Assembly (NCBI GenBank): GCA_964035545.1
Contig: OZ037766.1
Location: 32,777,773-32,841,772, forward strand
DNA length: 64,000 nt
DNA from: Bugula neritina
Taxonomy: Eukaryota > Bryozoa > Gymnolaemata > Cheilostomatida > Bugulidae
Reading direction: 5' to 3'
The position numbers and the translations under genes were made by a program. This document shows positions 1,882-59,400 of this stretch, piece by piece. Below the pieces are notes generated by a model. That model did not search any database. It was not told where the DNA came from and saw only the letters and a program-made list of their open reading frames with translations. Positions within the stretch are counted from its first letter, which is position 1. Every line of letters begins with the position of its first letter.

Positions 1882-4014
1882 TCACACTTGCTCTAGTTCA
1901 GTCAGAACTCCATTGCAGTCCTTAGGGTGAAGGAATATAACAGGCTTGCCGTGAGCTCCAATTCTAGAGGTCTCGGTGAGAGTTCGAATTCCTTTGCTCT
2001 TCACATCCAAGATGGCAGCCTCGATGTCATTAACCTGTTGAACCAATCATCATCAAGAACACAGTGAGTATATTGTATTGCATGCACAAAATATCAACAA
2101 ATATTATACATTCACAGTTGCAGTAATAGAAAAGCAAAAAACATTTTCTCAGACAACTCCCATGTAAAGTAAAACACAAAATAAGCAGAAAATAAAAACA
2201 CAGCACGAAGTGAAAAACTGAGCCATGGTTATTTGTTACTAACAAAATTATTTTACAAGGAAAAATAAATAATTTGAGTAACTACCCATATTCTTAACAG
2301 GGGAGGCAATTCCACAACATACAACAACTTTTACAGCCCTTTCCCCTGCCCCTTGCACACCCTTTCTATGCCCCCTGTTCTCAACACACTACCTCTAGAC
2401 AGATATGGTGAAGACCACCAGACTTATTCTTGTCTAGAAATGATTGTATTGGACTCTTGTCTCCGTATGGTAACAGTAACTGTAATATAATATAATATTT
2501 TTATAGCAGTAACTGTAATATAATATAATATTTTTATAGCAGTAACTGTAATATAATATAATATTTTTATAACAGTAACTGTAATATAATATAATATTCT
2601 TATAGCAGTAACTGTAATATAATATAATATTCTTATAGCAGTAACAGTAATATAATATAATATTCTTATAGCAGTAACTGTAATATAATATAATATTCTT
2701 ATCACTGTAGTCACTAGAAGTAGGAGAGAAGAAACACTGACCTCTATCTTAGTATTGTCCAGCTCCACAAACACCGTATAGACACCATGCTCAGGGAGAG
2801 CCTGCAACACACAGCAAACAATTGTTTATTCTAAAGAAATGCAAACAATATCTACAATGTACAACATAGAGCCTGATAACTCCAAAGTATAGTGGTGTGT
2901 GCAACTAACATGTTTCCATGGGAACTAAATATTGCCACATTAAATTTGTAAATTTATGAACCTGAATATTAATATTAGTCACTTACACTAGATACATACA
3001 TGCTATACTTACACTAGATACACACATGCTATACTTATACTAGACACACACATGCTATACTTACACTAGACACATACACTAGACACATACATGCTATACT
3101 TACACTAGACACATACATGCTATACTTACACTAGACACATACATGCTATACTTACACTAGACACATACATGCTATACTTACACTAGACACTTACACTAGA
3201 CACATACACGTGTATAAAGACTTACCACGACATCGGACACCTTTGCACCAAGGATATCCCGGTAGAGGGCTGCGGCTTGCTTAATGTCTGGCACAGCTAA
3301 GGCCACATGGTTCAGTCTGCCGACCTTCCAAACTGGCGATGATGTAATCTACAGATAGATGCGCAAGAAGCAATCTGCAGCCAGGAATTGAAACATGTAA
3401 TCTCACCGCACATAGCTTAGTTTTAAGTAATGTAAATTGTGGAGTTTTCATTGAAAAGGGTGAATGTCAAAAGAAGAGCATTAAAGACTTTGAAATGATG
3501 TCACTCATAGCCTGAGAGTTGCAATTAGTTGTGGAAATGAGGCTATGGCTCAGTATAAAATTAAGAAATAACACATAAAATATTTATAGAAGTGGCTGCA
3601 TTGACTTTGTATGATGTATATACCTTTGAATCAGTTGTGTAGAGTTTGATCTGAAATTTCTGTGGAATGCACCTCAATTCCGGCCTTATCTAAAAGATAT
3701 GTAAAGCCAACAAAATTTTAAAACTGTCTTATCCAATTTCTAACAATATGGCGCAATAATTAAAATTATATTATTACCTTCATTTATTACCACCAAACCT
3801 ATTTAATTTGACTCAAACTAAGAACTTGATTGAATTATCAAAAGCAACAACTTATAGCAAAACATAACTGCTTCTAGTTTTGACAGATGATTTGTATAGC
3901 AATCATAGAACACTATAAAACTGTTCGACTAGACTATTAGTAGATTATGTCACTTACACTACAGAACCGACTGAGTGAGAGAAGTTTCGGTAGAGTAGAC
4001 TTTGGAATCAACAT
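1882..4014 (-). CDS. MCEE: Methylmalonyl-CoA epimerase, mitochondrial (6 exons)
   Basis: The enzyme interconverts (2R)- and (2S)-methylmalonyl-CoA in the mitochondrial propionyl-CoA pathway. Exons on the minus strand: 3958-4014, 3624-3689, 3226-3348, 2742-2801, 2393-2479, 1882-2034. All lengths are multiples of three, so all introns are phase 0, and the total is 181 residues, close to the usual animal length. Exon 1 encodes a basic, Ser/Leu-rich presequence (MLIPKSTLPKLLSLSRFC) that suits mitochondrial import. The vicinal-oxygen-chelate fold is clear: GRLNHVALAVPD supplies the first metal His, GGLHHICLEV the second, and GVLTELEQV the C-terminal Glu; SPIQSFLDKN is also typical. The acceptor of exon 5 is the edge copy of a 33 bp minisatellite, and the intron after exon 3 opens into a gtaagt-bearing repeat. 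The product is almost certain; exon edges are well supported by phase. Confidence 0.95.
2472..2700. repeat. 33 bp minisatellite, about 7 copies, copying the MCEE exon 5 acceptor
   Basis: The unit is gcagtaactgtaatataat plus an AT-rich tail, period 33. Read on the gene strand, each unit contains attacag followed by ttactg, the same bases that form the intron 4 / exon 5 boundary. The true acceptor is the last copy. Confidence 0.9.
2985..3220. repeat. Minisatellite at the 5' end of MCEE intron 3
   Basis: Units of about 26-27 bp (cttacactagacacatacatg...). On the gene strand each contains gtaagt, the donor consensus, and the array starts right beside the real donor at 3225. The preceding exon bases are not duplicated. 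Confidence 0.85.
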
Positions 4015-6626: not shown

Positions 6627-9590
6627 TTAGGAGTTCATAGCTTGGTATCCAGCCATGGTCCTTCTTCTGCCAATACAGTAGCCAATGAGTACAATAACAA
6701 CCATAGCAGCAAGGGCTGCCCCAACAGCAATAGGTACTATAGCATCAGTCTTAGTGCCGCTGTCACCGCCGCCATTGGAATCACAGCTCATACCTTCAAT
6801 ACAAATAAAAGGCATTAAGAGCTAAGATTATATTTTAAGTGAATAGATGAATGTAGACTGTTCATTGCCCGCAAGCAGCATTGTTAAGCTTCACTTCTAA
6901 CTAAACCTACATGTTGTACCAGTATAATAATGTCCCAATATTTAGCCTTCAGTATCTTATCCCACTGCATGTCTATGATCACTTGGCAACAAGCAATGTT
7001 AAGTATACAGGTAGCCAGGTACATGTATGTCCACCTTCATACCTGTAGATCCAAACGACGGCTTCCCCGATTTGTCATCCATGAAGGCCTGAACTTTGAA
7101 GTCGGTCATTTTAACCATCACGCCTGTTTCCAGGGTCAAGTTGAAGCCTTTAGAGCAGTTGTAGTAAGTACCTAGATTTGAGTACATCTTGGAGGTGTAG
7201 GTCTGGCTGGCTTCGTGACTGAAATCTGAAGTAGATAGAGACACGTGAGGTTGACAGCCAGTGCTTTGTCAAACACTAAAGTTAAGGAACCAGAAACTAG
7301 CCAAAGCGTGGAAATAAACAGAAAATATATAAGCTATATATAGAAACTACAGCTCCAAAATAAAAAAGACTGAGAGTGAGGGTATTAGGAGTTCCTCAAA
7401 CTAAGAGAGAGGGGGCTAATAGCCTGCATATTGGAACAGGTTAGAGGTTACTTTGGATAGCCCAGTCAAAGTGAGGGGATAGTAAAAGTCACATAGAAAC
7501 AGTACTCTAGTTTCCAGACTATTACCTTCTCCCATATAAGTCAGGTTGGCGGCGGTCAAGTTGAACATTGTTGACGAGTTGGTAAAGTGCAACTCCAAGG
7601 AACACGTCAAGTTGCCACACGGAAACTCGATGTTGATGGCCTCGGTCTTGCTGCCGCATTGTCCATCATAATTGGCATTTCTTGGGACGTAAGAGTCAAC
7701 GTGGGTGGTAGTCTGAAGAGTCACATGACATACAGTTTTGGGTAACATTATACAAAAATGTCTCAAAAACTCAGATCAATTCCTGTATATTCGAGAAATT
7801 TAGATTCATGTGTACTACACAGATACATGTACCATAAAAAAAATTCTTACTATAGGAGAGTAAAAGCACCTTACTGTGATCAGAGTAGTTGAAACCTACC
7901 TTGTTTATGGTGTAGTTGAAACCTACCTTGTTTATGGTGTAGTTGAAACCTACCTTGTTTATGGTGTAGTTGAAACCTACCTTGTTTATGGTGTAGTTGA
8001 AACCTACCTTGTTTATGGTGTAGTTGAAAGTGACGGAGATGTTAGCTTGTAGCAGAAGGCAAGTTACATTGGACTCGTGCTCATGCACTGCGTATATGGG
8101 CGTTTTATCTACATAAACATCAACACATGCAACATCAATAGGACAATCTACGACAGCTCTAAATATGCTGACTGTACACCCGATGACATCACAGCAGGTA
8201 CTTCTTTACACCTGCTGCCGCTGCTGTTACTAAATATCGCTTGTTTCAAGATTTACGCACTACAATTAGATGGTTACATTTATGAAGGAATAAATATTCC
8301 GACTAAATTATTGTGTTTACAAGAGCTACTTATTCAACTATATATTCTATGTCAACATGTCTTCAGTTATTCCATGAGCTTGGGCAAATGTGATGTTGCA
8401 AAGCTGGGAAGAAGTCCGTTTGAGTTTTGTCCTGCATAGCATTGTCCCTCTAAATATTTGTTGTTCAGTCAATACCTCCTCTGCAGTCTTTACATGTTAT
8501 AGCATACTCAACGGTTATAACCTTGTGGTTACTATATTTTGTTGGCTCTTTGTTTGTATTTATCCCATTTAGACTCAACTTAACTCAACCCAACTGATTT
8601 GTGTATTACAGCAGCTAAGAATAACACGTAAAAACTAACAAAATTATCAGCAAGAATGCTTTGATGCTGCGGCACCGAATCAGATACTATTAATTAAAAA
8701 CACTGCGACAGCTGCACCAGGATGAAATAAACTTATAAAACAGCATCTACTTTGTAGTGAAACTAATTATTTTTAGATTGTAATACCGCCATGAATATAA
8801 AACTCGGTTCTAAAAAGTAATTGGCTGGCCAAGCATACACAAGCCAAACCTTTTTTGTGACATAAATTCGTAAAACATTTGCTGAAATAAGACACTTTGA
8901 AGATATTACGGCAAGAATTCCAAATAACTGCATAAGACAACAATAAAAAATTATATCATTAAAAAATATATATCTTAATGATATGCGTACACCAAACTTA
9001 CTTTTTGGCTTCGGAGTGGTAGTAGGTGAGGAAGGTTTGGTAGTAGGTGAGGAAGGTTTGGTAGTAGGTGAGGAAGGTTTAGTAGTAGGTGAGGAAGGTT
9101 TGGTAGTAGGTGAGGAAGGTTTGGTAGTAGGTGAGGAAGGTTTAGTAGTAGGTGAGGAAGGTTTGGTAGTAGGTGAGGAAGGTTTAGTAGTAGGTGAGGA
9201 AGGTTTAGTAGTAGGTGAGGAAGGTTTGGTAGTAGGTGAGGAAGGTTTAGTAGTAGATGTAGGAGTGGTAGTTGGAGATGTAGGAGTGGTAGTTGGAGTT
9301 GTAGGAGTGGTAGTTGAAGTTTGGGTAGTGGTAGTTGAATTTTGGGTAGTGGTTATATTAACATTTCCGCCGTCTACTCCTTGACTGTAGACCATAGCTG
9401 TGCTCAAAGCTAAAACATATTTACTACAATGAATAATTTTTATTTAATCTAATTTCAAAGTTAAGAAATTGAGCACAGTTGATTGTTATATGACCGAATA
9501 TTAAGTAACTCCCAAATGTTTCACGTTAAGCCAAGTGTTGACTATAAACAACTTACCTAGGACTAATACTAAGGCCATACAGTTCTTCAT
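6627..9590 (-). CDS. CD68/LAMP-like lysosomal membrane glycoprotein (6 exons)
   Basis: Type I lysosomal membrane glycoprotein with a mucin-like stalk and one LAMP luminal domain, the CD68/macrosialin layout. Exons on the minus strand: 9557-9590, 9002-9409, about 8008-8108, 7526-7712, 7043-7225, 6627-6793, with consistent phases. It starts with a signal peptide (MKNCMALVLVLALSTAMVYS), then a Thr/Pro region with eleven KPSSPTT repeats. The LAMP domain follows, with four spaced Cys (NVTCLLLQ, GQCGSKTEAI, FPCGNLTCS, YYNCSKGFNL), many N-glycosylation sequons, and VQAF near its end as in other LAMPs. The transmembrane helix runs from IVPIAVGAALAAMVVIVLI, followed by GRRR and a short tail with AGYQAM, the GYxxΦ lysosomal sorting signal. 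The end of exon 3 is in a 27 bp repeat carrying five donor sites, so its exact length is uncertain by multiples of nine residues. Confidence 0.92.
7894..8030. repeat. 27 bp minisatellite, 5 copies, copying the LAMP exon 3 donor
   Basis: The unit on the gene strand is ttcaactacaccataaacaa followed by ggtaggt. It encodes FNYTINKVG and includes the donor gtaggt. With period 27, any of the five donors keeps the downstream frame. The lowest-coordinate edge is a diverged copy reading FNYSDHS with a gtaagg donor. Confidence 0.92.
9006..9250. repeat. 21 bp coding minisatellite, 11 copies (LAMP mucin stalk)
   Basis: On the gene strand each unit encodes KPSSPTT; it appears as ggtttggtagtaggtgagga on +. 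It lies inside LAMP exon 2. Third-position variants (ggtttggt versus ggtttagt) are mostly silent. Further upstream the stalk continues as imperfect PTTTPTS repeats. Confidence 0.95.
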
Positions 9591-12447: not shown

Positions 12448-14916
12448 ATGCAGAAAATGGTGTCCCCTGAGAGTAGTGTTGATGAAGAAAGGTATTTGGA
12501 GACATTTGATGAGTTATCTCAGTCACTCACTTATACTAGAAGCAAATCTGTTGATCCCAGTTTGAATTCATCTACTGTTGACAGCAGAAGTGGCTTGTGG
12601 GTATTTATCTTTCAATTTTTTCTAAACACTGTCCATATTGATAAACAATATATACATCTATTATTTGTTTGCAGATTAGACGTGAGTTGTAAATAAGAAT
12701 GATTTTATGTAGAACGCTACACGTCATTTACTTTTCGCATGCCCGAAAGCACGTTTTTAGGTTTAAGTTTGTATAATTTTATTTTAGTGATTTAAAAAAA
12801 GAAACAAGCAATTATTATTCAAAAGATGATTATTCAGAAGATTTTGCTAGTTGCACCCCTAGTAGCACTCCCACTTTAGAACTTAGTCTATCCCAGGAAT
12901 ATCTCACTGATTTCTGTTCAATAGACACAACTAAGGATTCCGTCAATGCAGGTGATGTGTCTTGCTGTCAGCAGGTATCAACTCATAGTCACAGTGTCAC
13001 GCCGCGTGACTCCAGTCAAAGTAACAATCATCAGACTGATTCTCCTGAGCATGATGATGGAACCGACAGCTATGACTCACAGTCTTTCACCAGTTTGACT
13101 CATAGTACAACCTCCAAAGACTCTCAATCTGTGACTACGGCTAGTAAAACTCATAGTACAACTTCTAGTGACTCTCAATCTGTGGTTAGTATTAGTAGGA
13201 CTCTCAGTGACTCACAGTCAATAACTCATTTTACTGATAATGAGACTGCCTACAGTTACGGCACATACTCAACAGAATTTGATAACTCTTCCAAATCAGA
13301 GTCAGTTAAGGATACAAACGCAGGGAATGGGGAGACAATGGAGCACCTAATGAATAATATTCGGTTAAACCTGCACCCATCTGCACCTGCAGGTGATCTA
13401 AACAGCATTATCTTAGCACAAATTTTTATCTCATAAGCTAATTATATACATATCGTATATTCATTTTATTTGCCTTTTATTTTCAAAATCAAATGAAGAT
13501 AACATTTTTTTCTGATTTCTATAAATTAATTTTTTAACCAAAATTTCTTAGCAACTCAAAATATTGGATTAAATCAAGAGAGACTTGTTAGTGCTGAGAG
13601 TGTCGGTAACTAACCTGTGATGTGCTTGTGATATCGTAGAACCTGTAAGAGTTATAATACAAAATAGTTTCATCATTAGTTCACCCGAGAGCAAATTAGC
13701 ATAATATATGTTTGTGTGAGTGCGTGTGTGCTCTATTATAAATAATTCAAGTTTATATGAATTATTTTAGAAACTTGGGTCAATAAACTAGAGAAAGCAG
13801 CTGAAGTTTGGTCCGAATCAAGTAAAAAAGGCATTTTAGCTCTCATAGCTAACTTACAAAGCAATCAAATGAATAATGTTGAAGACTTGGACACTGACTC
13901 TACAGTTGATAGAGAAATCCCCGCTGGCCACCACTATGCCTACGCAGTTGAGAAATTACGAATTGATAATGTCTTGCTTGACATGAAGGCGAAAGTCAAA
14001 GCTTTGGATAGAGAAATTGATGAGCATCGGAGAGCTTCAAGGTGAAATAGTCTAAATTCTTGTCCAACTGCAGTATGAAAACATTTAGCAGTAAAAGCAA
14101 AGCTGTGAGTAATTTTTACAGGGTATGATCAATGCAGTCCTGAATAACGTTTAATTCCACTCAAAATGAAATTCTCAGGTGGCTCAACATGCTTCTCTGA
14201 TCACATTTTAAAAGAACATAATATACGTAGATATTTACGGTGGTTAGTATAATGAAGAAAAACGGATGAATCCATATCTAGGTCTCAAAGCAACGGTGGA
14301 CTCGGCTATACTATACGTATATAAACTTATAAAGCATGAGCGTACAGAGCTCAATGCGTATTAATTGTTATATCAACTAGTAGTATTGCTCTGGGTATGA
14401 GCGGCCTCGTGGCCTAATGGATAAGGCGTCTGACTTCGAATCAGAAGATTGTGGGTTCGAGTCCCATCGGGGTCATTATTTTTTAATTTTTTTCAGGGTA
14501 GAACATTGCGATATTTCCAAGTATGTATTGCCCAGAAAGCTTCAACTGCAGCGTGAAGCTTTTTTGCTGGCAATAGATAAGCATGAAGCTGAAATGGCAA
14601 GTACTGCATCTGTATAATATTTAATCTGATTATTTATGGCCAACACTTTTCTACTGTTTTTTGTATCAATTCAATAAAAAATAGTTATCAATAAAATAGG
14701 AAGCATACTGTAATACTTGTGGTCTATTGAAATGTATTTTCCAATATTATTTAACAAATAAATTGGTTTTTGTAGAATTCTGTGTCAATGATAGGCTCAT
14801 TAGCACACGACCTTCCTAAGCCTACTGACAGGCCAGAGGAGATATGGGCTAAGTTGATGAATACAGCAAAACGCCGCGTCACCACACCTTCTCCAAAGAG
14901 TAGTGACAATGCATAA
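12448..14916 (+). CDS. Unrecognised Ser/Thr-rich protein with a C-terminal helical region (5 exons)
   Basis: Exons 12448-12596, 12788-13392, 13771-14041, 14497-14596 and 14776-14916 join into one 421-residue frame ending at TAA 14914-14916. Either ATG 12448 or 12457 can start it; an upstream exon is not excluded. The first half is acidic and very Ser/Thr/Gln-rich with degenerate DSQS(V/I) repeats (e.g. TTSKDSQSVTTASKTHSTTS). The second half is charged and probably helical (NKLEKAAEVW, VEKLRIDNVLLDMKAKVKAL, LPRKLQLQREAFLLAIDKHE), and the C-terminus ends KRRVTTPSPKSSDNA. No membrane segment or catalytic motif is seen and I do not recognise the family. The last intron (14597-14775) uses a GC donor. 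The third intron hosts a tRNA-Arg. The first donor is GTGGGT, chosen because only it keeps phase. Confidence 0.75.
14403..14475 (+). tRNA. tRNA-Arg (anticodon TCG)
   Basis: A 73 nt cloverleaf. The acceptor 5' strand GGCCTCG pairs with CGGGGTC (one G-U at 2-71 and a U-G at position 5). The D arm is ggcctaatggataaggc. The anticodon arm is TCTGA-CTTCGAA-TCAGA with anticodon TCG. The T arm is GTGGG-TTCGAGT-CCCAT. The A box and the B box (GGTTCGAGTCC) are both intact, and the discriminator is A14475. No intron and no encoded CCA. It lies on the same strand inside an intron of the 421-residue gene, 21 bases before the next exon. Confidence 0.96.
14476..14496 (+). terminator. Pol III T-run that is also a polypyrimidine tract
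   Basis: The tRNA is followed by tta, six T, aa, seven T, then cag. The T-runs serve as the Pol III terminator and, for the host gene, as the polypyrimidine tract of the acceptor whose AG is 14495-14496. Confidence 0.75.
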
Positions 14917-18800: not shown

Positions 18801-21609
18801 TAGTATATAGTATACTGTATACATACATATTATATAGTATACTGTATACATATATATTATATAGTATACTGTATACATATACAGTATATAGAGTAGACTG
18901 CATAATAAAGAGGTAAGTACATATAATAGATAAGTAAGTATATATATATAGCAAAGGCTAACCTAGAATATATGGCCACAAGCCGCACACCGATTGGCTA
19001 AGAACTACTCACTGATGTAAACTGGATGTTGACTGGCTCATCAAAGTGAATGTTCTTAGCAAATTTCTCCATCTCTAGTCTGTGTTCCTGAGTGCCCATT
19101 TGACAAACTTGGTTGAAAGTATGGGTACCCCTAGCGAGATGGAATTTATACTCAGCACAAGCTAATCCCTGATGGAACTATAATCAACCTTACTACCAGG
19201 TTTGATCTAATAGACATTATCGGAGAAGATTGAAGAGGAGAAGTTTGAAGAAACGGAATAGTTAAAAACTTCTGTAAGCAAACAACTCTGTGTACTAGAG
19301 AAAGAAAGATTGAAAGTATAGTCGCTGTTACTGGGAGTAGGTTTGTAGGGTTAATGTAGACGGTGTAGCTAGGTGCTGAGTAGACAACATGCAGCTGTGA
19401 AACAAGGTTTACAGGGCAGTTAGTCTGAGTATTTATTAGCTAGTCTGAGAAACAGCAGTGCAGGTAAAGGTCACAGTTGTACCTAGCAGGTCAGGTCAAG
19501 TAAATGAAGTATCCAGATATATGCAGCTGTGCTATCAAGTACAGGCGTACTTAAAGAGGAAGTACCAATATGAATGTATAAACATTGACGCAACAGACAT
19601 CACAAAGCACTAACAAATAATCTCAACATAAAATATAATAAATAAAACACAGACTTTCAATATCTAATGCTCCGAACACACAACACATCAACTAAAGAGA
19701 CATTATATAACACAACTAGTCTAAACTAAAGACAACAATGCTATGTTCTCTCTGGTGATCATGTGTAATCCAGACTTGCAGCTTTCCTTGCTATGCATGC
19801 AAGTGAATGTTTCCTAAGACATGCTTGTTTTATACACACTACCTCACAGTAAAGAGAAAATAACTCTAATTCATATGCTGTATACCTTACCTAGCCAACC
19901 TGCATATAGCTACAGCCTGCAAGCAATAGACTTGGCATTATACATGATACAGAGTAAATGTTGACTACCATATTAAATGATGTCCAAACACTAAACGCAG
20001 TGTGTAACTGAAACCCAGTGCGTTGTAAGCAATGCGAGAGCTGCACTTACGGCTTAGCAGTGTCTCCCATTATGATAACAGAGGTGAGTTCCGGCGCCCT
20101 GTAATACATATAGAGTACCGTATAGAGCAGAGTATTAGCCCTGTAATACATATAGAGTACTGTATAGAGCAGAGTATTAGCCCTGTAATACATATAGAGT
20201 ACTGTATAGAGCAGAGTATTAGCCCTGTAATACATATAGCGTACTGTATAGAGCAGAGTATTAGCCCTGTAATACAGATAGAGTACAGTATAGAGCAGAG
20301 TATTAGCCCTGTAATACATATAGCGTACTGTATAGAGCAGAGTATTAGCCCTGTAATACATATAGCGTACTGTATAGAGCAGAGTATTAGCCCTGGTAGA
20401 TACACACTACTAACATTACTGTAATGGCAACACTGGGAGTTGTTTACTCTAGCTGACTAGCATGGATATAGAGAGGACAACTCAAGAAATTAACAATTAA
20501 CAGCTAAGATAATATAGTATAATTACAGCGTTATACATAATATTGTTCACTAGTGCTTATATATAAGCTGTATAGAGTTTATCAGAAGTTCTACAATGTA
20601 TTCTTCATCATTATATTCTGAGGCCTATACCAGTCACCCCTACCGCAAGGATCTATAAAACTACAGCTAACCTGTGGCACTGTAGACGGCCAGGAGGGCA
20701 TCTGGAAAGTTCTGGAAACAACTCAAACATCATCTCATAGTAGTCTTGAGTCTTAAAAGATTCAGCCATAATCATGGCTTTCATTCCAACCTTCTGGATG
20801 GCGTATTCCAGCTCTTGTACTCTGTACGCTGGGTTCACATTTACCTGCATACACAGTAAAAAGGTCTATTTTTACCTGCATACAGAGCAGTAGAGTCTAC
20901 ATTTACCTGCATACACAGTAAAACGGTCTACTTTTACCTGCATACAGAGCAGTAGAGTCTATATTTACCTGCATGCACAGTAGAAGGGTCTGCATTTACC
21001 TGCATACACAGTAGTGGAGTCTACATTTACCTGCATACACAGTAAAATGGTCTACATTTACATTTTGAGTTATAAATATTATTGAAATTAAAGAGCTGTT
21101 GAGCTTACCATAATGAGACCAATGTGTGCAGTGGCAATCTGAGTAAGAACCCATTCAGCTCTGTTGGGACTCCAGATACCGACCCGGTCTCCCGGCTTAA
21201 GTCCTAAGGCTAATAGCCCGGCAGCCAAATCATCCATCTGTACAGAAAGTATATATTGTATAAAGTAGGTGGAGAGAGATTTCTCTTATGAGACCCTTTA
21301 GTGGGACACATGCCGTTACACTATATCATCATCCTCTATGATGCCTAAGTAAGGTACTCAGTTACTAACACAAGCTAACCATATCACCAGTGACAGTAAA
21401 AAGTGATGAAATATCTGACCTTGGACTTGAACTGCTGGTAGGTCAGTCTCACTTTATCTCGCGAGAAAACAATCATGTCTCTATCAGGTGTTGCCTCCAC
21501 CTGTTTATTGAATAGTTCACCGATTGTAGCCCCACTGAGGGTGTGGTCACTGGGAGAACTGGCATAACTAAGTTTGACGGAATATCGGCAAACTGAAGAG
21601 GACAGATTC
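15881..21609 (-). CDS. ACSF2: ACSF2-like mitochondrial medium-chain acyl-CoA synthetase (14 visible exons, 5' end open)
   Basis: Adenylate-forming ligase that activates medium-chain fatty acids to acyl-CoA using ATP. Minus-strand exons run from 21420-21609 ([24 protein letters not shown]) to 15881-16018 ([12 protein letters not shown], stop 15881). Landmarks in order: [34 protein letters not shown]; the P-loop-like [51 protein letters not shown] (A5 motif); [49 protein letters not shown]; and the A10 Lys in TGKVQK. All core motifs are intact and collinear with ACSF2. The visible exon at 21609 begins one base into a codon after a clear acceptor, so an upstream exon with the start and most of the mitochondrial presequence exists; I could not place it. 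Introns carry several minisatellites, two of which duplicate acceptor sites. Confidence 0.93.
17559..17625. repeat. 21-22 bp repeat, about 4 copies, ACSF2 intron
   Basis: Units aaaacactgaagggnaggggg. Intronic; not at a splice site. Confidence 0.85.
18325..18590. repeat. (TAC/CAC)n trinucleotide microsatellite, ACSF2 intron
   Basis: About 265 bp of interrupted tac, cac, aac and act triplets. All six frames are open here purely because of composition. Confidence 0.95.
18720..18900. repeat. Palindromic TATA/GTATAC repeat, ACSF2 intron
   Basis: Repeated tatagtatactgtatacata units, each self-complementary, between the exon carrying the GTTGNPKG motif and the exon before it. Confidence 0.85.
20099..20395. 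repeat. 42 bp minisatellite, 7 copies, copying an ACSF2 acceptor
   Basis: Unit ccctgtaatacatatagagt... of period 42. On the gene strand each unit contains tgtattacag followed by ggc, identical to the acceptor and first bases of the exon at 20051-20098 (encoding [15 protein letters not shown]). The functional acceptor is the edge copy. Confidence 0.93.
20838..21062. repeat. 31 bp minisatellite, about 7 copies, copying a second ACSF2 acceptor
   Basis: Units ctgcatacacagtaaaanng... of period 31, in two alternating variants (cacagtaaaa and gagcagtaga). On the gene strand each contains tgtatgcag followed by gtaaatgta, matching the acceptor at 20845 and the exon start that encodes VNVNP. Confidence 0.92.
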
Positions 21610-23950: not shown

Positions 23951-23952
23951 TG

Positions 23953-24030
23953 ATGACTGTGTGGTCCAGAGGTTAAAGGCGCCAGTGATGAGTTGTTTGG
24001 CCGTGGTTCAACCCTATTCTGTGGCAATTC
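23953..24030 (+). repeat. tRNA-like sequence (possible SINE head or tRNA pseudogene)
   Basis: The sequence gtgtggtccagaggttaaag resembles a D arm with an A box, and ggttcaaccc resembles a B box (GGTTCAANCC) about 35 bases later. The anticodon arm pairs poorly and the acceptor ends do not match well, so it is not a working tRNA. It sits just 5' of a LINE fragment. Confidence 0.45.
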
Positions 24031-24049
24031 TTAAGCCGGAACTCATGAT

Positions 24050-35110: not shown

Positions 35111-35159
35111 AGTGTTAATCAATAAAATGTGGTACTAATTCTATAGAACATACACATGT

Positions 35160-38500: not shown

Positions 38501-39713
38501 ATACATAATTGAATAATTCAACAATTCTTTACTCAAGCAAAAATGAATTAAGTACATGCTGACAGTTTTCTAGTATGGAACTAAGCTCCAGTAATCGAAA
38601 GAAAAAAGGAACTACTGAGGTGACTAATAGAGAAATCGTTAACATGAATGTATACATTTGCATGACTATTACATTCCCACCAACCTTATTATACTATGAC
38701 TATTACATCCCCACCTACCTTATTCTACTATGACTATTACATCTCCACCTACCTTATTCTACTATGACTATTATATTCCCACCTACCTTATTCTACTATG
38801 CAATACTTCAGGAGTGCTTTTTTCTAATTTCAAATTTTTATTGAATCCATTATTAAAATATCTGAATGCTATTAATACTTTGTAAATGAATTATGAATAA
38901 ATGTCTTTTCATTAGTTTGCCTAAGAAAAAGTTTTACAGCATACCAAATTTAGTCTCTTCACTGTTAACTAAGGTTGTATTAGTTTAACCGAAGCAAACC
39001 TTTTAAACTAATCAGTGTAAAAATGTGTTAAACGAAGACTCTCAACCAAGACTGTTAATTTGACTAGATACTGTGAACTCACTTCAGAAGTTGGTTTATC
39101 AATATCTCCATAGCAAAGAACAGGTTGTCTGTCTGATTGCACAGCTATCTGTAACACATGCAGCTGCTCCATAAATCAATAAGAAGTAAAAACTACAGTC
39201 ACTAGATAAAACTGCTTTACCAACAGCGAATATAAATTCATTTTTAGTTGACTTTGCACTCTATTTTCAAGTTCAAGTGCTTGTCACAAACTGGTTGTCT
39301 AATTATTACAGTGAATAATGCTCAACACACTACAAAATTAGCTTTCCGCTGTTTGATATTTAAAAATGAGAAAATATTTTAGTCTTTGCACACATAGCCA
39401 AAACTACACTAGTAACTAAAAACTAGTAACACAAGACTAGTAACTAGTGAATTGGCACTAATGAGACGTGACCACTAAATTGTGACTAGCAACTTGTGAC
39501 TAGCAACTAAGGACTGGTAACTAAGGACTAGTAACTAAGGACTAGTAAGTAAGGACTAGTAACTAAGGCTTAGTGAGTAAAGACTAGTAACTAAGGACTA
39601 GTAACTAAGGACTAATAACTAAGGACTAGTAAGTAAGGCTTAGTGAGTAAGGATTAGTAACTTGCGTGTGAAGGTGATTCAATCTCATACTCTTCTTCTG
39701 GTTGGCTAGCCAT
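35529..39713 (-). CDS. RRM-containing protein, paralog B (11 exons)
   Basis: Minus-strand exons: 39666-39713, 39083-39148, 38257-38394, 37530-38120, 37173-37355, 36962-36997, 36685-36853, 36318-36400, 36051-36186, 35624-35717, 35529-35553; total 522 residues in one frame. The N-terminus MASQPEEEYEIESPSH and the next exon (IAVQSDRQPVLCYGDIDKPT) match paralog A (LAVQHGQATVSFGDIDKEHE). The helical region matches too (FNILNQYCTKVKELIAGCLV). A tandem EEGGAKKEG linker is unique to B. RRM: ETVLYISALGGHMTERKLFDDF, then GFGFVRFLHKEDARQANL, the canonical RNP1. A second RRM-like unit follows (TKVYIQSEGITKEYLRDLSQ ... KSFGFLDFLSQDDAYNALAL). The last short exon, ending VYHHY, is inferred from phase and the matching 25 bp exon of A. 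Exon 1 uses a GC donor. The function beyond RNA binding is unknown. Confidence 0.8.
37188..37320. repeat. 27 bp coding repeat encoding EEGGAKKEG
   Basis: About 4-5 units inside RRM-B exon 5, as ctccctcttcggtcctctcc on +. They give an alternating Lys/Glu-Gly linker absent from paralog A. Confidence 0.85.
38640..38800. repeat. About 38 bp repeat, 4 copies, RRM-B intron
   Basis: Units accttattctactatgacta followed by ttacatccccacct. Intronic, not at a splice site. Confidence 0.85.
39470..39660. repeat. 14 bp repeat (ctaaggactagtaa)n, start of RRM-B intron 1
   Basis: About 13 copies with variants (aagtaaggactagt, gtgagtaagg). The array begins within the donor region of exon 1. Confidence 0.85.
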
Positions 39714-40840: not shown

Positions 40841-40981
40841 CTATAAGCAGCTCCAAGTTGGGGGGTAAATAAGCGCAATAGTTTGGGTTCTTTAATTTAG
40901 AGTTCCATCATATTTGAAGCTCGAAATTCAAGAACTCCAAGCTATTACACTCATTCTCTCTCAACTTGGAGATGCTTATAG
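40841..40981. mobile_element. Possible 141 bp MITE with 20 bp inverted ends
   Basis: Left end ctataagcagctccaagttg (40841-40860); the right end 40962-40981 is its reverse complement with one mismatch in 20. A single arm-like relative, ccaacttggagctgctgata, occurs at about 11838-11858, suggesting a dispersed family. No clear target duplication. Confidence 0.55.
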
Positions 40982-41965: not shown

Positions 41966-43842
41966 TCATAATGATGATTTAGTTGAGACAATACTGGTCA
42001 ACCGCAGCCAACAAATCTTTTTAACTTCTGATACTCCGGTGTGTATTTCTTGATCTTGTTCATTATTTAACCTCTGGGCCAATCCTTTCAATATCGCATC
42101 TTTTTTATTTTCTCGAGCGCATATCACAAATGGGAAACCAAACTTATCTTTGTATCTAAAATCAAAGTAATGGTTTAATTTAATAGGAGTTAATTAGACA
42201 ATATCATGAGAAGATAACTTCATACAGTCATTACAGAGTAAACTGTTAGTAAAAAGATAAATAAATGTGCTTGCAAGAATTTCTACATTAGAAGATACCT
42301 AACATCTAATATCTATCTTAATTGTGATTCTTAAAATCATATGCGTAATTTGCACTCAAGCCAACAACGTTGAATATGATATAATCAAATGAGCAAGATT
42401 TCCATAAACAACTTTGTACATAAAATTATGTAACTTGATCGAAAATGAAAGGAAATACGGTTATACTTCTGCAAGACTATAGCCGTTTACTGACATCAAC
42501 AATCAAAGAAAAGGTAAAAAGAAATAGAATAACTCTCAATTATTATCTTCAGTATTGTTGTTAAGAGAAACCAAGGCAATGACACAAGTGTAAAAGTCTG
42601 TGATTCCCAGTGGGACACAGCACAATAACTTATTGCATAGAAAGTTTAATCATAATATCATGATAAGCATACGACTTACTTACTTATTCTAGGCATATAA
42701 AATGAAAGACTTATTAAAGGTCAAGTATTATTATTACGTTTATAAATGAACACGCCTAGCAACAAGAGCTGTATTAAAGTTACTACCGTGTGTTGAGAGA
42801 GTCCATTTGGGACTTTTCACCAGGGGTCAGGTCATCAAGGCCAGCTGCCTTCTGCTCCAACTTTGACTCATCGGTTAGCTGATCTGCTACCGCAAGCCGT
42901 CCAGCAAGATCTGGATGACACCTCAGTATTCCAGCTTTCCCTGCGGTGATCAGCAAATTAGCTATAAACTAGTTAATACAAGCTGCAGGTGCAAGATAAA
43001 TTGAAACTTCTGAAACACAAATTAAAACTCTTTAGCACAAGATACATGTAAAACATCAACAAATGACTAAGTGATGTTTTTTCCCTGCGTGTGACTGGCA
43101 AGTTTGGCATTGTAGTTATCTACACTAAAGTTGGTCAGTCAAAAATAAATCACATACTGTCAAAACAGAGCCAAATCGAACACCTCTCTGGCAAATACAT
43201 GAAATCTTATGAAATCATTACAACTAGAAACAAAATATTCACAGTTTAGGAGTGAATTAGCAATGGAATCATAACATATAGTTTATGCATATAAAACAGT
43301 GTGTAAAATGAACACAAAAGTGTCACCTGCTAATGGAAGCTGGTCAACAAATGTTTCTATAGATTTTTGTAAACTTTCTAGATCTTGAAATGGAAGGTTT
43401 GACCATACAGCAGCAGCAACAAGGGGGCTCATCTCAACCACATTTCCAAATATTTTAATGAATTCTTCAAATCCCAGCGCATTTACCTCAGATATAAGCA
43501 TCTTTTTGACTTTATTCCTATCAGATAAACTAAAAGAACCTGCAAAGTTAAAGTAATACAAACATAACTTCAACCAGCAAGTTACAGTCATCAAAACTAT
43601 AAATATTATTATATTCATATTGTTACAATAGCTGCTACAATAATTGTAATATGGGCATCATTTTTACATCGACATTGACTTTTAACTCTTTTATGTATTG
43701 AATATTATAATTATTAGTATATATTTCATTTGATATTCAGACACTAGGCTGTTGCATCACTATTAAAAGCTTACAAAATATTACACTTACAGTACAGATT
43801 AGCGGGCGTGGCGCAGTTTATACCGAAACTATTTTGAAGCAT
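41966..43842 (-). CDS. URAD: OHCU decarboxylase, uricolytic pathway (4 exons)
   Basis: 2-oxo-4-hydroxy-4-carboxy-5-ureidoimidazoline decarboxylase, the last step from urate to (S)-allantoin. Exons on the minus strand: 43791-43842, 43327-43539, 42787-42940, 41966-42155; phases agree and give 202 residues. Family features: FKIFGN-type helix region (EEFIKIFGNVVEMSPLVAAA), RCHPDLAGRLA with the catalytic His, ESKLEQKAAGL with the catalytic Glu, LNTRYKDKFGFPFVICAREN with the substrate-binding FGFPFV block and Arg. Length is slightly above the usual ~170-180 because of N- and C-terminal extensions. The C-terminus reads STKSSL; this is not a standard peroxisomal SKL signal, though many family members are peroxisomal. 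The start at 43842 is the first ATG, with a good gtaagt donor in phase. Confidence 0.93.
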
Positions 43843-44503: not shown

Positions 44504-45448
44504 ATGCCATCTAAGAGCAAAGATAAGTGCGCCTATTGCAACCTGAAGGCTGATGAGCAAAAATGTCATGTGATGATACGCTGTGATTGCTGTGAGGCAT
44601 GGTATCACAGCCAATGTCAGGACCTCACCAAATATGAGGCAAATCTCATCTCTAGCGCAGAAGGGAAAGGAGTAAGATGGTTCTGCACTAAATGCATACC
44701 GGAACTGGTAATTAATGTAGACTCTCAAGACCAAACTAAAGCTAAAACTTCAATTACCGAACTAAAAGAAAAGCTGGAAGAAATGAATCTGTTAACAATG
44801 AACAAACTTAACGATATTGACCGAGCTGTTAAAGGCATGCAACTCACGTATGCTGATACACTAAAGAGTAACAATGAGAACATAAAGTCCCTAGAAGATT
44901 AATGTTCCAAGCTTGTTGAGCAAAGTACGGTGCAAATGAATAAGGCTGTTGAAGTAAACATAAATGCTGAGAAGTTGATGCAGAAAAGTAATGAAATAAG
45001 TGAGGCAGATGCCAGAAAATGTAATGCTATTCTATATGGTGTGCCGGAGGGAGATGGAATACCGGTATTAGAGCAGGTCGAAAAATTCATGAGAGAAGAA
45101 AGATTCAAAAACCTTGACAAACCTCATGCAGCCTTAAGACTCGGAAAAAAGAGTGCGGAAACCGCTAGACCCATAAAAGTTGTCTTTGAGACTATCCAAT
45201 CTAAATGGGCCTTCATAAAGAGGGTGAACTCTTGGGGACTTAAAGGTGACAAAGTCTTCTGCAAGCTAGATGCCAGCAAGGAAATCCGCAACCAAGAGTT
45301 CGCCCTCCGTGAGTGTGTGCGTGGACTGAAAAGTGACAACCCTGGATCTGCATACAGAATAAGGAATCTGCAAATTGAATGTCAGCAACCCTCGGGGGAA
45401 TGGAAGCGTCTGACGCCGGCATTAAACAGTGTAGTGAGAGCCCACTAG
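44504..45448 (+). pseudogene. LINE ORF1 with PHD finger, broken by one stop
   Basis: Starts MPSKSKDKCAYCNLKADE. A PHD-type zinc finger spans about residues 8-65: CAYC, IRCDCCEAWYHSQC and WFCTKC. A predicted coiled region follows (ELKEKLEEMNLLTMNKLNDI), then after the stop a nucleic-acid-binding-like domain (NAILYGVPEGDG, AALRLGK, PIKVVFE, VFCKLDASKEIRNQE). TAA at 44900-44902 interrupts the frame; the frame is open again right after it with no shift. The true state is one nonsense change, not extensive decay. Confidence 0.88.
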
Positions 45449-48165
45449 CCTTATTTTTGGCAAACTCCAGGTCTGTTAAGGGGAAAACGGCCGAAGTTCA
45501 ATTCATTACATCTGAATATGATATAGTTTGTTTAGTAGAAACACATATTGATGACACTATAAACAACTGTGACATTCTCTCTAGCCAAAGCAAGACCATA
45601 TTTAGATGGGATCGTAATATTCATGGTGGCGGGGTCCTTATAGCAGCAGCGAATTCGCTTCAGCCAACTAAAGTTGAACTAGACACTTTGGGCGAAGAAA
45701 TGGTTGTAGTACAGATCAAACATAGCATTATAATATGCTGCTACTATAGACCAAACATATCAATGCTAAACATGGCAGCTTTGAGAAATGTCATTGAACA
45801 CATCACCAACAAATACCATCATCATTCCATCATTCTTGTTGGTGACTTTAACCTCCCTGAAATAGACTGGGAAACCAGAAAACTAAAATATGGTGCAAAA
45901 TTCAAGTCTGTACACTTGGACTTTCTCACCATGTTATTTGAAAACAGGATGCAACAACTTGTTACGCAACCCACTCATATTCACGGTAATATCCTGGATT
46001 TAATCTGTACCAATAACACAGCGTTAGTCACAGATATTGATATAATATCTCCGGGTCTCAGTGATCACTACATCGTCACTGCAGTGCTTACCTGCCATAG
46101 ACCAAATCTCTTAAAAACACAACCGAAAACAATTAAACTATACAAAAATGCAAATATAACTGGTTTCAGAGACAGTATGCAAACTGTCTGTAACAAACTT
46201 AAGGACATGTCAGACCCGGACAACATGTGGCTCCTTTTTAGAGAAGGTCTTGCGCAGGCTTGCAAAGATCACATTCCTACAAAAGTTTTAAAATCAAAAA
46301 ACTCTCGCTGGCCTGTTTGGTTTGATAAGGAGGCAAAGAAGCTTGCTCAAAAGCAAAGAAAAACTTGGTTTAAGTATAAAAAAACAAGGGATGTGTTTTT
46401 CTTGGAGAAGTATAAAACAGAGCGAAAATCTTGCAAAAAATTGCTTCGTCACAAAAAGAGGAACTATGTAGTTGAGAAGGTATGTAAACCATTAGAGAGG
46501 GGAAATTCCAAGCCTTTTTTCAAACACCTGAGGCAAAAAACTGGTCAAGATAATATTTCCATGTCTCTTACTGACCCTGATACTAATCAACTAACTGACA
46601 ACTCACTGAGATGCGCTGAAATCCTGAACAGTTATTTTTATAGTCAGTTCTGCCAAGATCACCAGGTGTCACAATATCCAAATTATAGCAGTGATACTCA
46701 TAACATATGCATATCCATCAAGGGGCTTGAGTCACTTATTAGAGGATTGGCAAATGGTAAATCACCGAGGCCAGACGGCATAAGAAAACCAGACCTATTA
46801 GTTGATACTGAAATAAATGCCACTTGTCTTCAGCACATATACCATGCCTCACTTAAATCTGGAAAACTACCAAGAGAGTGGAAACTTGCTAATGTAACCC
46901 CAATACATAAAGGAGGAAGCAAGGAATCACCACAGAATTATAGGCCTATCTCTCTCACAAGCATTCCGTGCAAAATGCTTGAGCACATAATCCTGCACTA
47001 CCTGAATGCAACCCTTGACAATATACTTCACAACAGGCAGCATGGTTTTCGGAAGGGAATGTCATGCGATACTCAGCTGTGCTCAACATACCATGACATT
47101 GCCAAGGCGCACGACCAATCACAAGACACACATGCAATTGTTCTAGACTTTAAAAAAGCATTTGACAAAGTCCCCCATTCCCTACTGCTACTGAAACTAC
47201 GTCGCATTCCAGAAGTTAACCCACAGATTATAAATTGGATTCAAGATTTCATCACCAACAGAAAACAGAGAGTTGTAATCAAAGGCTCATGCTCAACTGA
47301 GCTCCCAGTAACATCGGGCGTCCCCCAAGGATCTGTACTAGGACCCACACTATTCTTGGTTTATATTAACGATTTACCAAGTTGTGTCAATTGTTGTGTC
47401 AGTCTTTATGCAGATGACACCCTGTTGTACCAAAGAGTAAACTCAGAAGCAGATGCTGCAGACTTCCAGGTCAATATCGATGCAGTATATAACTGGTCCC
47501 AACAGTGGAAGATGCCTTTTAATGAAAGTAAATGCCATGCTATATCATTTGGTCGCCAAACAAGCCTTCCATCTTATAAGCTTGGGAGTACACCTGTCCA
47601 ATGGACTGAAGAGACCAAGTATCTCGGTGTGACCATGCAGAGTAATCTAAAATTTGACCAACACATTGTGCTGAAATCACAAAAAGCTAGCAGAGTCCTA
47701 GGAGCAATAAAGTTTGCTCTCCATGATGCTCCAAAAAATGGCAAACTCTTGGCTTACACCAGCCTCTGCCGTCCATTGTTGGAGTATGCAGATACCCTCT
47801 GGGATCCTTACTTAAAAACCACCATACATAATATAGAAATGGTTCAGAATCGTGCTGTGAGGTTCATATCAGGTCTCAAGGGGCGAGAGAGTGTTAGTGA
47901 CGCTCGATGCGAACTGGGTCTACTACCATTGCAAACGAGGCGTAAAAATCATAGGCTCACACTATTGACACGTATTCTACAGTCTGAAGCCACGCACAGT
48001 ACACTTTCATCAGACTATGATGAGGTTGTGGAAAATCGCTCTCTCATGTCCGTAACTACGAGATCAGCAACCCAAGGTTTACCCAACTCCATTTCTTCTC
48101 ACTCTAGCTGTTACCACCAAAGTTTCTTACCAAGAACGATACGCGACATGAGAGGATTTACCTAG
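45379..48165 (+). CDS. LINE ORF2: AP endonuclease and reverse transcriptase
   Basis: 928-codon open frame overlapping the end of ORF1 by 70 bases in another frame. The endonuclease domain (about residues 20-240) has NSRSVKGK, CLVETHI (catalytic Glu), RNIHGGGVLI, VGDFNLPEIDWE and PGLSDHYIV. The reverse transcriptase (about 440-720) has NYRPISLTSIPCKMLEHI, QHGFRKGMSC, LDFKKAFDKVPHS (first Asp), GVPQGSVLGPTLF and YADDTLL (Asp pair). The C-terminal region has LCRPLLEYAD and RFISGLKGRESVSDAR. In the usual KSPGPDGI motif the middle Gly is replaced (KSPRPDGI). No stop or frameshift seen, so recent activity is plausible. The start may be ATG 45379 or 45400. Confidence 0.92.
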   Translation: MSATLGGMEASDAGIKQCSESPLALFLANSRSVKGKTAEVQFITSEYDIVCLVETHIDDTINNCDILSSQSKTIFRWDRNIHGGGVLIAAANSLQPTKVELDTLGEEMVVVQIKHSIIICCYYRPNISMLNMAALRNVIEHITNKYHHHSIILVGDFNLPEIDWETRKLKYGAKFKSVHLDFLTMLFENRMQQLVTQPTHIHGNILDLICTNNTALVTDIDIISPGLSDHYIVTAVLTCHRPNLLKTQPKTIKLYKNANITGFRDSMQTVCNKLKDMSDPDNMWLLFREGLAQACKDHIPTKVLKSKNSRWPVWFDKEAKKLAQKQRKTWFKYKKTRDVFFLEKYKTERKSCKKLLRHKKRNYVVEKVCKPLERGNSKPFFKHLRQKTGQDNISMSLTDPDTNQLTDNSLRCAEILNSYFYSQFCQDHQVSQYPNYSSDTHNICISIKGLESLIRGLANGKSPRPDGIRKPDLLVDTEINATCLQHIYHASLKSGKLPREWKLANVTPIHKGGSKESPQNYRPISLTSIPCKMLEHIILHYLNATLDNILHNRQHGFRKGMSCDTQLCSTYHDIAKAHDQSQDTHAIVLDFKKAFDKVPHSLLLLKLRRIPEVNPQIINWIQDFITNRKQRVVIKGSCSTELPVTSGVPQGSVLGPTLFLVYINDLPSCVNCCVSLYADDTLLYQRVNSEADAADFQVNIDAVYNWSQQWKMPFNESKCHAISFGRQTSLPSYKLGSTPVQWTEETKYLGVTMQSNLKFDQHIVLKSQKASRVLGAIKFALHDAPKNGKLLAYTSLCRPLLEYADTLWDPYLKTTIHNIEMVQNRAVRFISGLKGRESVSDARCELGLLPLQTRRKNHRLTLLTRILQSEATHSTLSSDYDEVVENRSLMSVTTRSATQGLPNSISSHSSCYHQSFLPRTIRDMRGFT

Positions 48166-48250
48166 CTTACCTATCAATTTTCTTTTTAAATATCACTATC
48201 TAAATTGAATAATATCAGCGGTAATGCGGAAGCACTAAAAAAAAAAAACG

Positions 48251-49970: not shown

Positions 49971-49975
49971 GTAGT

Positions 49976-50014
49976 ATTTTTAATACCTATACTAAAAGTA
50001 TAGGTATTAAAAAT
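49976..50014. repeat. Perfect 17 bp hairpin, 5-base loop
   Basis: atttttaatacctatac, loop taaaa, gtataggtattaaaaat; 17 of 17 pairs. It lies about 75 bp upstream of the LINE fragment at 50090. Confidence 0.9.
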
Positions 50015-50089
50015 ATAATGATAATGATATAATGATAATATAATGATAATGATTATTATTAGCCTGTAACACTATACTATATACGCATA

Positions 50090-50900: not shown

Positions 50901-51397
50901 AACTCACCACTCAGTTTAGCTGCAGTTTATTACCACTGACAACACATCAACTGCTTGTATAAACATTGTCCCTGTTAATATATTAGTTATTTATGTGCAT
51001 AGGGATAAAGAGAATATTAAGTAGTAAAATCTGTTTAAATGTTAGATTTATTTTCAAAACAGTAGAAGCAAAGTTACTGCAATTTTGCATTTATGCACCT
51101 TAAAGTTTGAAGCTTGTATTCCCATAGTTTGGATAATTTTAGCACTTTAGTGAATTATACTTTATGAATAATGTATTGTTTATAATGTTTGCTGTCTACT
51201 CAATAATTTTGAGAAAAATTAACAAGGTTGAGAAGTTCTTCAACTGTAAATACATCTATTACTAGTGATCATTGCGTATAGATTCACTATCTGTATTTTA
51301 AACACCGTATATTTTTTACTCCAAGTCAACATTTCATAACATTTTTGTCTTTCGTGCTTGTAGAAAGTTGGAGAGGAGATGTAGAGTTTAAGGCAAT

Positions 51398-56279: not shown

Positions 56280-56326
<47 letters not shown>

Positions 56327-56356
56327 ACCAGTACTACTACTACTAACCAGTACTAC

Positions 56357-56388
<32 letters not shown>

Positions 56389-56410
56389 TTACTACTACTA
56401 GTAATAATAA

Positions 56411-56459
<49 letters not shown>

Positions 56460-59400
56460 GCTACTACTACTACTGCTACTACTACTACTACTAATACTAC
56501 TACTACCGCTATTTCTACTGTCACAGTTATTATTCTAGTGTGTTAGTGACACTATCAAGATGTAAGTCCCCCAAGCCAGAACTCTCTAACCTATCAGAGT
56601 CTCCATCAGTGAAAGTAGAAAACAGTATGCAGAGCATTGCAAACTTCGAGCAAGCGGACAGTGAAGACTCGAGTATTCATATCCGAGAGAAAGAAAAAAG
56701 GTGGGAGTTGTTTTCACTTGGAATAATTCACTCGTCTGTCACCTCTTGAATATTGTACTACGCTCGTCTGGACATAATATTACAATTAGTTAAACTTGTA
56801 CTATGCATATAGGAAGAGGTCAAGATCACCAGACAGAGAGTCCACTTCTTTGATTTCTTCAATAACTAGTAGATCACTGAGTGTGTCAGCCACTAGTCGC
56901 ATCACTTCAACAGGTGTGTAGAGTTTATCCACTTTACCTTGTAGCATATATACTTGTATGTTATATATGTATATGTGTAGTATGTACATCATATGACTAG
57001 TGTATATGTTTATTGTATGAATTTATTATATAATGTGTTCATTACACATATGTTCATCATCTATTACCTAAACTATGTATAGTTTGTCCTGATATCTTTC
57101 TATTCATGTAATTACAATCCATTAAATTACTCAGCCACTACAATGCCCTGTGAACCAACATTAACTGTACAAATGTTTGTATAGTTTCTACTGATGGACC
57201 TGAAGCTAGTTTTTCTGACAAGTTTGATATGAAATTGGAAAGTCAGCACTTGTATGTTAATATTGCTCTCTTCAGCATCAACAACCTACTTAGTGTGTCT
57301 GCTAATGGTGCTGAGGATTCCCTTATTGGATATGTAAGTGTTACTCTCATTGGATATGTAAGTGTTACTCTGATTGGATATGTAAGTGTTACTCTGATTG
57401 GATATGTAAGTGTTACTCTGATTGTATATGTAAGTGTTACTCTCATTGGATATGTAAGTGTTACTCTCATTGGATATGTAAGTGTTACTCTGATTGTATA
57501 TGTAAGTGTTACTCTCATTGGATATGTAAGTGTTACTCTCATTGGATATGTAAGTGTTACTCTCATTGGATATGTAAGTGTTACTCTCATTGGATATGTA
57601 AGTGTTACTCTGATTGGATATGTAAGTGTTACTCTGATTGGATATGTAAGTGTTACTCTCATTGGATATGTAAGTGTTACTCTCATTGGATATGTAAGTG
57701 TTACTCTCATTGGATATGTAAGTGTTACTCTCATTGGATATGTAAGTGTTACTCTGATTGGATATGTAAGTGTTACTCTCATTGGATATGTAAGTGTTAC
57801 TCTCATTGGATATGTAAGTGTTACTCTCATTGGATATGTAAGTGTTACTCTCATTGGATATGTAAGTGTTACTCTCATTGGATATGTAAGTGTTACTCTG
57901 ATTGGATATGTAAGTGTTACTCTCATTGGATATGTAAGTGTTACTCTCATTGGATATGTAAGTGTTACTCTGACATTTTAAATATCTAAAATAATCTCAC
58001 TGAGGTCAGAGAAGGTCTTAGCAGTGATTGAAATAAGAGCGTAGCGCCTGTATTTAAATAAACTGGAATAAGTTACATTTGGAAAGTTCACTTGCTGAGA
58101 TGAAGCAGTTGCACTTAATTACCTCAGACAGTAAAGAGCCATTTCATTCAAGGAAACTGATGAAACCTTGTGATCATGTCTCCAATGCTCCTGATGTTTA
58201 TGTTAAACTTTAGAGGCAATATTTACTTTAGACGTCGGTGTCTGTACCGGACATTCTCGGCCAATGCTCTTCCAGCCCAACAGATCGCACCCAAATCTCT
58301 GTGAGGTTGTCTCCCCCGCCAGATTTGGATCACAACCCGGCCATGATTGGTGCTCGGGAGATGGATATTTCCAAGTGTTACGGTGACGTCACTCTGGAGT
58401 TCTACGCACCAGAATACAAGCAATCAGGCGGTAATCTACATTTCTCCTGTTGGTCTAATGTGCGCTACACTCTTTCCTTTCACTTTTTGTTGTAGAGATA
58501 TGCACAAGTGGAAGCTTTTTGATTCTACAGTTTGTTTTGTATGATAATTTTTTAGTTATAGAAGTTTGAAATGTATTTTGCAGTTTTTGCTAGATACTCT
58601 AATCATTGTTGTTAATTAAGTCAACTCTGTATGATGAAAATAGAAATAGAACATTTGGTAACATATTGTATGCTTTTTCAGCTGCAGAGCCACCCAAAGT
58701 CCCAGATGCAGTTGAAGACAGTGAATTTGCTGACATTGACATAGTGCCCCCTGTGGCTAGCCTTTCTACTCAGGCAGGTCCTTTCCGTACCGACAGCGAC
58801 ACTGATTCCTTAACTGCTTCTTTCCTGCACTCATTTAGAGACCAAGCCTTTACGCAAGCTATTAGCTGTAACTTCTGCTCGAAAAAGGTAGCCTTCATCG
58901 ATTCTGTGAATTAAGTTAATTACTTTACAGGCATCTGGTACTTTCATTTCACTGAATGTTCTTGTTCTAGTGCATCATCTGACAGTTTAGGTATGGTATA
59001 TTTTCCCTCGATATGGTTTGTTTTCAGCATGTCTTACTCCTAATGCTCTCTAAACATAAAATGTAACTTAGTTATCATTTTATCAGTGCTATTCACCCGT
59101 TAGCTGTAAGAGCATTTCATGGTATTTGTGTAAAGCAAAACAGCTTGTTTTGGATATCTAACTGACCTCAGGTGAACCTAACTCGTATAGATTTCGCTGC
59201 CCATTACATCTCTCTATCTCTTGCTATCACTCTAGTCATGCTCTAATTAACCTAGTTTATTTAATTACCATTCTATTATAACACCTAACAGTAAATTAGT
59301 TTAGGTGAATCCCATCGTTTCACCTTATACATTATGTGTTGTTAGAGCATTCAATAGCCTTGTTGAATTGTAAATTGTTAAAAGAGCAATTAGCACAAGT

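Follow-up and report, generated by a model that had tools for sequence, protein, structure and literature searches.

What are tandem arrays doing across the exon-intron junctions of one short stretch of a bryozoan chromosome, and which of their equal-scoring splice sites would be used? The stretch, called the window below, is 64,000 nucleotides of Bugula neritina chromosome 2 (G000:C2:32777773-32841772). A sequence-only reading of it had placed minisatellites at six junctions in five genes, i.e., MCEE, LAMP, ACSF2 (twice), RRM-A and PDZD8, and had put the working splice site in the copy at the edge of each array. Here, we report that all six arrays are found by the program TRF, with which tandem arrays were called throughout, that arrays across exon-intron borders are real and recurrent in B. 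neritina, with splicing probably at the edge copy, and that neutral minisatellite birth, tolerated since the edge site still splices, is the likeliest reading and a probable one.

Six arrays and their exon-edge copies

The genome copy searched has 215,847,546 bases in 295 contigs; B. neritina tzBugNeri2.1 is described as a HiFi assembly with a quality value of 53.7 and 320 scaffolds (PMC11480708). Gene models came from a small home-made hidden Markov gene finder, and those of the window were then refined by hand. The closest database proteins are from B. neritina for LAMP (92% over 61% of the query) and ACSF2 (93%), and from Watersipora for PDZD8 (49%). LAMP and ACSF2 differ from these B. neritina records by 7-8%, which points to another population or a sibling species. 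A genome search with the LAMP exon and its array found a single place (one haplotype), and thus no alternative haplotype of that array.

Three of the arrays lie at 3' splice sites, all on the reverse strand. In MCEE, a 33-bp unit is repeated 6.9 times at 2474-2702 (97% match), and 6 bases of the exon 2390-2479 are inside the array at the junction TTACAG/TTACTG (the slash marks the junction here and below). In ACSF2, a 42-bp unit (7.3 copies, 96%; 20096-20404) takes in 3 bases of the exon 20051-20098 at TTACAG/GGC. The second ACSF2 exon concerned, 20672-20844, has 8 bases inside a more diverged array of 31 bp (7.3 copies, 78%; 20837-21061) at ATGCAG/GTAAATGT; this array is also called as 62 bp x 3.6 at 90%, i.e., it has a 62-bp higher-order unit. 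The other three arrays lie at 5' splice sites. LAMP exon 3 (8008-8108, reverse strand) ends in a 27-bp array (5.4 copies, 100%; 7885-8029) which covers 22 exon bases at AACAAG/GTAGGT. On the forward strand, RRM-A has a 50-bp array (3.1 copies, 90%; 30655-30811) with 10 bases of the exon 30566-30664 at AAAG/GTAAGT, and PDZD8 has the longest row, 27 copies of 24 bp (97%; 57325-57971), with 9 bases of the exon 57185-57333 at ATTGGATAT/GTAAGT. The units that TRF reports are unrelated in sequence and do not form one transposon family, as had been said of them.

Which copy would be spliced? In the refined gene models the junction is within the exon-edge copy at all six arrays, and at five of the six, homologous proteins run on with no insertion (the comparison being one of protein records), so that the proposal of a working edge site holds up at these five on homology as well. 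MCEE aligns to human MCEE (3rmu) with no gap where exons 2742-2801 and 2390-2479 meet. The alignment of LAMP to the B. neritina record P0003 is free of gaps, and P0003 joins FNYTINK directly to TTT. The B. neritina record P0089 matches ACSF2 without a gap across both array junctions; a PDB search with ACSF2 was not used because its alignment spans only the first of them. For PDZD8 there is no gap or insertion at DSLIGY/TSVS against Watersipora P0001. The edge site of RRM-A has the reading frame as its sole support, the 50-bp unit being one that would shift the frame. Before refinement by hand, the automatic gene finder already agreed with these models at five of the junctions; in LAMP it moved the donor to the distal end of the array, and the predicted edge site of LAMP is based on homology.

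Two of these genes have neighboring features of their own. LAMP also has a coding array of 21 bp (9017-9264) that encodes a KPSSPTT stalk. RRM-A (27156-32860, forward) and RRM-B (35601-39148, reverse) resemble inverted paralogs and are separated by about 3 kb; TRF lists nothing at the end of the corresponding RRM-B exon, but the exon as predicted contains a 30-bp array (37193-37313).

Decoy copies, reading frame and known counterparts

The runs of decoy sites that had been read from the letters are borne out by scoring, since copies equal in score to the used site occur at all six arrays. For the scoring, matrices for donors and acceptors were trained on this genome, and sites above 2.9 (donors) or 1 (acceptors) were listed. 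All 26 further donors listed for PDZD8 score the same as the used site (4.3), as do all four for LAMP (6.1) and two of five for RRM-A (7.2; the other three are weaker). Among the upstream acceptors listed, the used site is equaled by five of five in MCEE (4.0), by 5 of 12 in the 42-bp ACSF2 array (6.0) and by 3 of 11 in the 31-bp array (4.9), where two more are nearly equal. The edge site is not selectable by sequence strength as scored. Equal-scoring decoys together with a choice of the edge thus point to positional recognition, such as exon definition.

The neutral reading that we favor would run as follows. In a genome rich in minisatellites, slippage or unequal exchange of the ordinary kind would give rise to short tandem duplications, and now and then a seed unit would happen to span an exon-intron border. 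The exon-proximal copy would keep the exon's own terminal bases and the splice site, leaving the mRNA unchanged if the edge copy is used; because these are preserved, the duplication would be nearly neutral, and copies could accumulate on the intron side. The spliceosome would then pick the exon-edge copy among equal decoys, presumably by its position. Neutral arrays of this kind would still lend themselves to testing how a splice site is chosen, since their equal donors differ only in position.

Could the copies instead serve the cell, as alternative or buffering splice sites or as a source of in-frame variation in protein length? In favor of this, decoys match the used site in score, and the unit sequences of three window arrays could extend the reading frame without a stop: use of an inner copy would add 9 codons each in LAMP (VGFNYTINK), 8 codons each in PDZD8 and 14 residues each at the 42-bp ACSF2 array. 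However, an inner copy in MCEE brings a stop, those of RRM-A and the 31-bp ACSF2 array shift the frame, and so do all five crossing arrays found outside the window, of which none has a unit length divisible by three. Over the whole sample described below, unit lengths divisible by three are no commoner than chance, 4 of 11 in crossing arrays vs 24 of 63 in non-crossing ones; selection on frame was rejected on this count, and that frame-neutral units are not favored argues against selection for coding use. Inserted units are also absent from the B. neritina LAMP and ACSF2 records and from Watersipora PDZD8. We consider a function of this kind improbable.

The arrangement had been taken to have no standard name. 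This was wrong, for minisatellites that duplicate exon-intron borders have been named mirages in amphioxus, where they occur in Adh3, the globins BflGb6 and BflGb9, TnC and PGBD5 (PMC3087553, PMC3902484). The Bugula arrays have the features by which mirages are recognized, i.e., a unit that includes the exon-intron boundary and extra copies that carry cryptic splice signals, and judged by their units they are mirage-type minisatellites, known from amphioxus and here in a bryozoan. As in amphioxus, the border-spanning repeats sit at 5' or 3' sites with a unit length that varies by gene, and many copies retain splice signals, the Bugula decoys being equal to the used site. The host is different, six arrays fall in one 64-kb window with others in a 200-kb sample, and there are up to 27 copies; moreover, normal splicing (by reverse-transcription PCR) and length instability were shown by experiment for amphioxus mirages, whereas the Bugula arrays are known from sequence alone. 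No account of such arrays in B. neritina or in bryozoans was found among the papers listed by one open-access literature collection. The papers cited describe mirages from a few amphioxus genes, and their recurrence in a bryozoan suggests that they may arise generally where the load of minisatellites is high.

Internal tandem repeats are also found at exon-intron boundaries in human segmental-duplication genes, where they can form new introns (PMC2812944). Those units, minisatellites of about 30 bp at borders, resemble ours; the human cases are recent paralogs with altered splicing and transcript-backed new introns, whereas the Bugula genes are mostly conserved and their proteins apparently unchanged. 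A tandem duplication in potato RdRp likewise carries splice motifs, and there both splice sites of the new intron came from the duplication, whereas in Bugula one end only is in the array (PMC4974935). These cases raise the question of whether the Bugula introns themselves arose from their arrays, an intron gain by internal tandem duplication as proposed for amphioxus globins (PMC3087553) and for some human paralogs (PMC2812944). However, none of the six window introns has both of its splice sites in the array, which takes in one and leaves the other end outside; we regard such an origin as very improbable.

Crossings against chance placement

The arrays could be frequent at junctions for the simple reason that arrays are frequent in introns. 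To read the counts, the sample and the rules need to be stated. The sample comprises 264 kb, the 64-kb window plus 200 kb from four other places in the genome. A crossing is an array that covers at least 3 exon bases at a junction. Before counting, we removed exons of less than 45 bp, those with weak scores and those of which arrays made up more than half. Models outside the window are unreviewed save for seven Pfam checks, four of them with a match, one of these below the curated cut-off. The uncorrected gene models put 11 of 602 junctions inside an array. From those 11, two window positions, 10745 and 24035, were left out as lying outside the hand-checked genes, and position 36788 of contig C4 was left out as well, with just 2 exon bases; the MCEE, LAMP and PDZD8 crossings are absent from that list and entered via the hand-checked models. 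The crossing at C1 48296, with a doubtful exon end, was retained.

By these rules, the sample contains 74 intronic arrays, of which 11 are crossings; 6 of the crossings are among the 21 arrays of the window, and 5 are among the 53 from elsewhere. If arrays fall anywhere within their own introns, reaching at most one unit into the exon, 10.1 crossings are expected (standard deviation 2.55; an earlier version of this null, with larger repeat periods, gave 11.2). If introns are pooled, the expectation is 5.6, and 11 is then an excess (Poisson P = 0.03). The window alone has 6 crossings vs 4.7 within introns or 3.0 pooled, and the remainder of the sample has 5 vs 5.4 or 3.3. Outside the window, 5 of 192 predicted introns have a crossing array, one of them at a doubtful exon end. 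In the five blocks, arrays make up 1.2-18.3% of non-coding and 0-0.4% of predicted coding sequence, as measured after the removal of exons that were mostly array.

Several counts weigh against neutral birth, the pooled excess above being the first; those that concern donors are taken up in the next section. Units of at least 20 bp cross in 9 of 40 cases vs 3.9 expected with pooled introns (P = 0.02; 7.8 within introns). When at least 6 exon bases are required, there are 9 crossings vs 4.8 pooled (P = 0.06; 8.8 within introns). An extra 50 kb gave 1 crossing among 5 arrays vs 0.2 expected, at a doubtful exon start, and with it the total becomes 12 of 79 vs 5.8 pooled (P = 0.016) or 10.3 within introns (P = 0.34). 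Taken together, arrays cross junctions at 1 to 2 times the blind-placement rate, and the choice of null decides whether this is significant. Because of this, and because the window was picked as the place where the finding was made, which bears on any excess, an excess of crossings is possible and not established. A recurring process centred on junctions, as had been suggested, was therefore right about recurrence, which extends to other parts of the genome; the centring is not established, the excess over blind placement being significant with pooled introns and not within introns.

Donor sites, array composition and other features

Is there a process that aims at donors? A mutational bias at 5' splice sites, e.g., co-transcriptional R-loops or breaks just after exons that seed tandem duplication, would make these sites hot spots of minisatellite birth here. 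The crossings include 8 donors and 3 acceptors, and outside the window 5 and 0; the 8:3 split is not significant (P = 0.23). Donors alone are significantly in excess with pooled introns (8 vs 2.8, P = 0.008) and not within introns (8 vs 5.06, P = 0.14). When an acceptor is duplicated, splicing tends to take the upstream copy first. Acceptor arrays may for this reason be lost to selection, which may be the cause of the higher donor count.

The second line of evidence for donor targeting comes from words of 8 bases, each scored on its first 100 listed matches from one end of C1, and all numbers of loci given here are among those matches; for the donor words AGGTAAGT and AGGTGAGT the matches listed are of the plus strand only. 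Tandem loci number 10 of 58 for AGGTAAGT and 8 of 68 for AGGTGAGT, or 16 of 120 after merging, which removes arrays common to both words. The control words share the composition of AGGTAAGT. One with a matched array-style score, ATAGGAGT, is tandem at 1 of 95 loci (P = 0.0006 vs the donor words), and TGAAGTGA at 0 of 100, a significant difference too; however, TGAGAGTA, whose array-style score is higher, has 5 tandem loci among 79 (P = 0.16). The word TAGAGAGT was dropped, since its 100 listed matches are all within C1:130-11020, spaced as a 26-bp satellite. That spacing indicates a satellite of about 26 bp at this end of chromosome 1 (G000:C1:130-11020). Four of seven AGGTAAGT arrays that were fetched lie across a predicted exon end (L035, L031, L032 and L036). 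L035 is a caspase exon by Pfam, with just 2 exon bases in the array; a Pfam search of the exons at L031, L032 and L036 gave no match.

Strand and composition can also be asked of the arrays that do not cross. Among these 63, the number with at least two donor-like sites is 11 in sense and 12 in antisense. The density of donor-like sites is higher in sense, 10.9 vs 6.6 per kb, an excess carried by few arrays, one with 49 such sites; in non-array intron it is 4.0 and 3.8 per kb. One further intronic array of MCEE (2976-3208, reverse strand, TRF) has 15 donor-like sites on the gene strand and lies near a donor without crossing it. Array units are enriched in the trinucleotides GTA, CAC, ACT and CTA, a style that GTAAGT (4.5-fold) fits, and GTAAGT is accompanied by AGTAGT (4.0) and GTAGTA (7.8). 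Three donor variants show no enrichment (GTAAGA 0.9, GTAAGG 0, GTAAGC 0). Two other donor-like words do, GTAGGT (6.4-fold) and GTGAGT (3.0), and the style word AGTTAG, at 0.6, does not. An origin of arrays in general from splice sites is not favored, as the enrichment of GTAAGT is of the same order as that of other GTA/AGT words and the counts have no strand bias, while two observations, the higher site density in sense and the enriched words GTAGGT and GTGAGT, argue against its rejection. A reversed-pattern control (1418 vs 148) was set aside as unfair for the same two reasons, the likeness to other GTA/AGT words and the even strand counts.

Hot spots at 5' splice sites are thus a tentative explanation, which we think rather unlikely. 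If it is true, a noticeable share of donors, which might number in the thousands should this small sample be representative, would be followed by runs of equal decoys, and the genome would be a natural experiment on spliceosome choice among up to 27 equal sites. Neutral birth of minisatellites, with the edge copy doing the splicing, is the reading that we prefer.

The remaining features of the window are predictions. Reverse-transcriptase-like open frames at 44504-48162 and 23970-25418 are, judged by eye, probably remains of long interspersed nuclear elements. A gene on the reverse strand at 42035-43842 is OHCU-decarboxylase-like, a name also given by eye, and ARAGORN predicts a tRNA-Arg (tcg) at 14403-14475. 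Elsewhere in the genome copy, matches to Helicase_C on contigs beyond C9 have TAA or TAG inside and no TGA in 14 of 16 rows (the unplaced contigs C35, C58, C75, C114, C126, C146, C150, C161, C176, C232, C244, C258, C262 and C291), which suggests that these contigs may be DNA of an organism, for instance a ciliate, in which TAA and TAG encode an amino acid.

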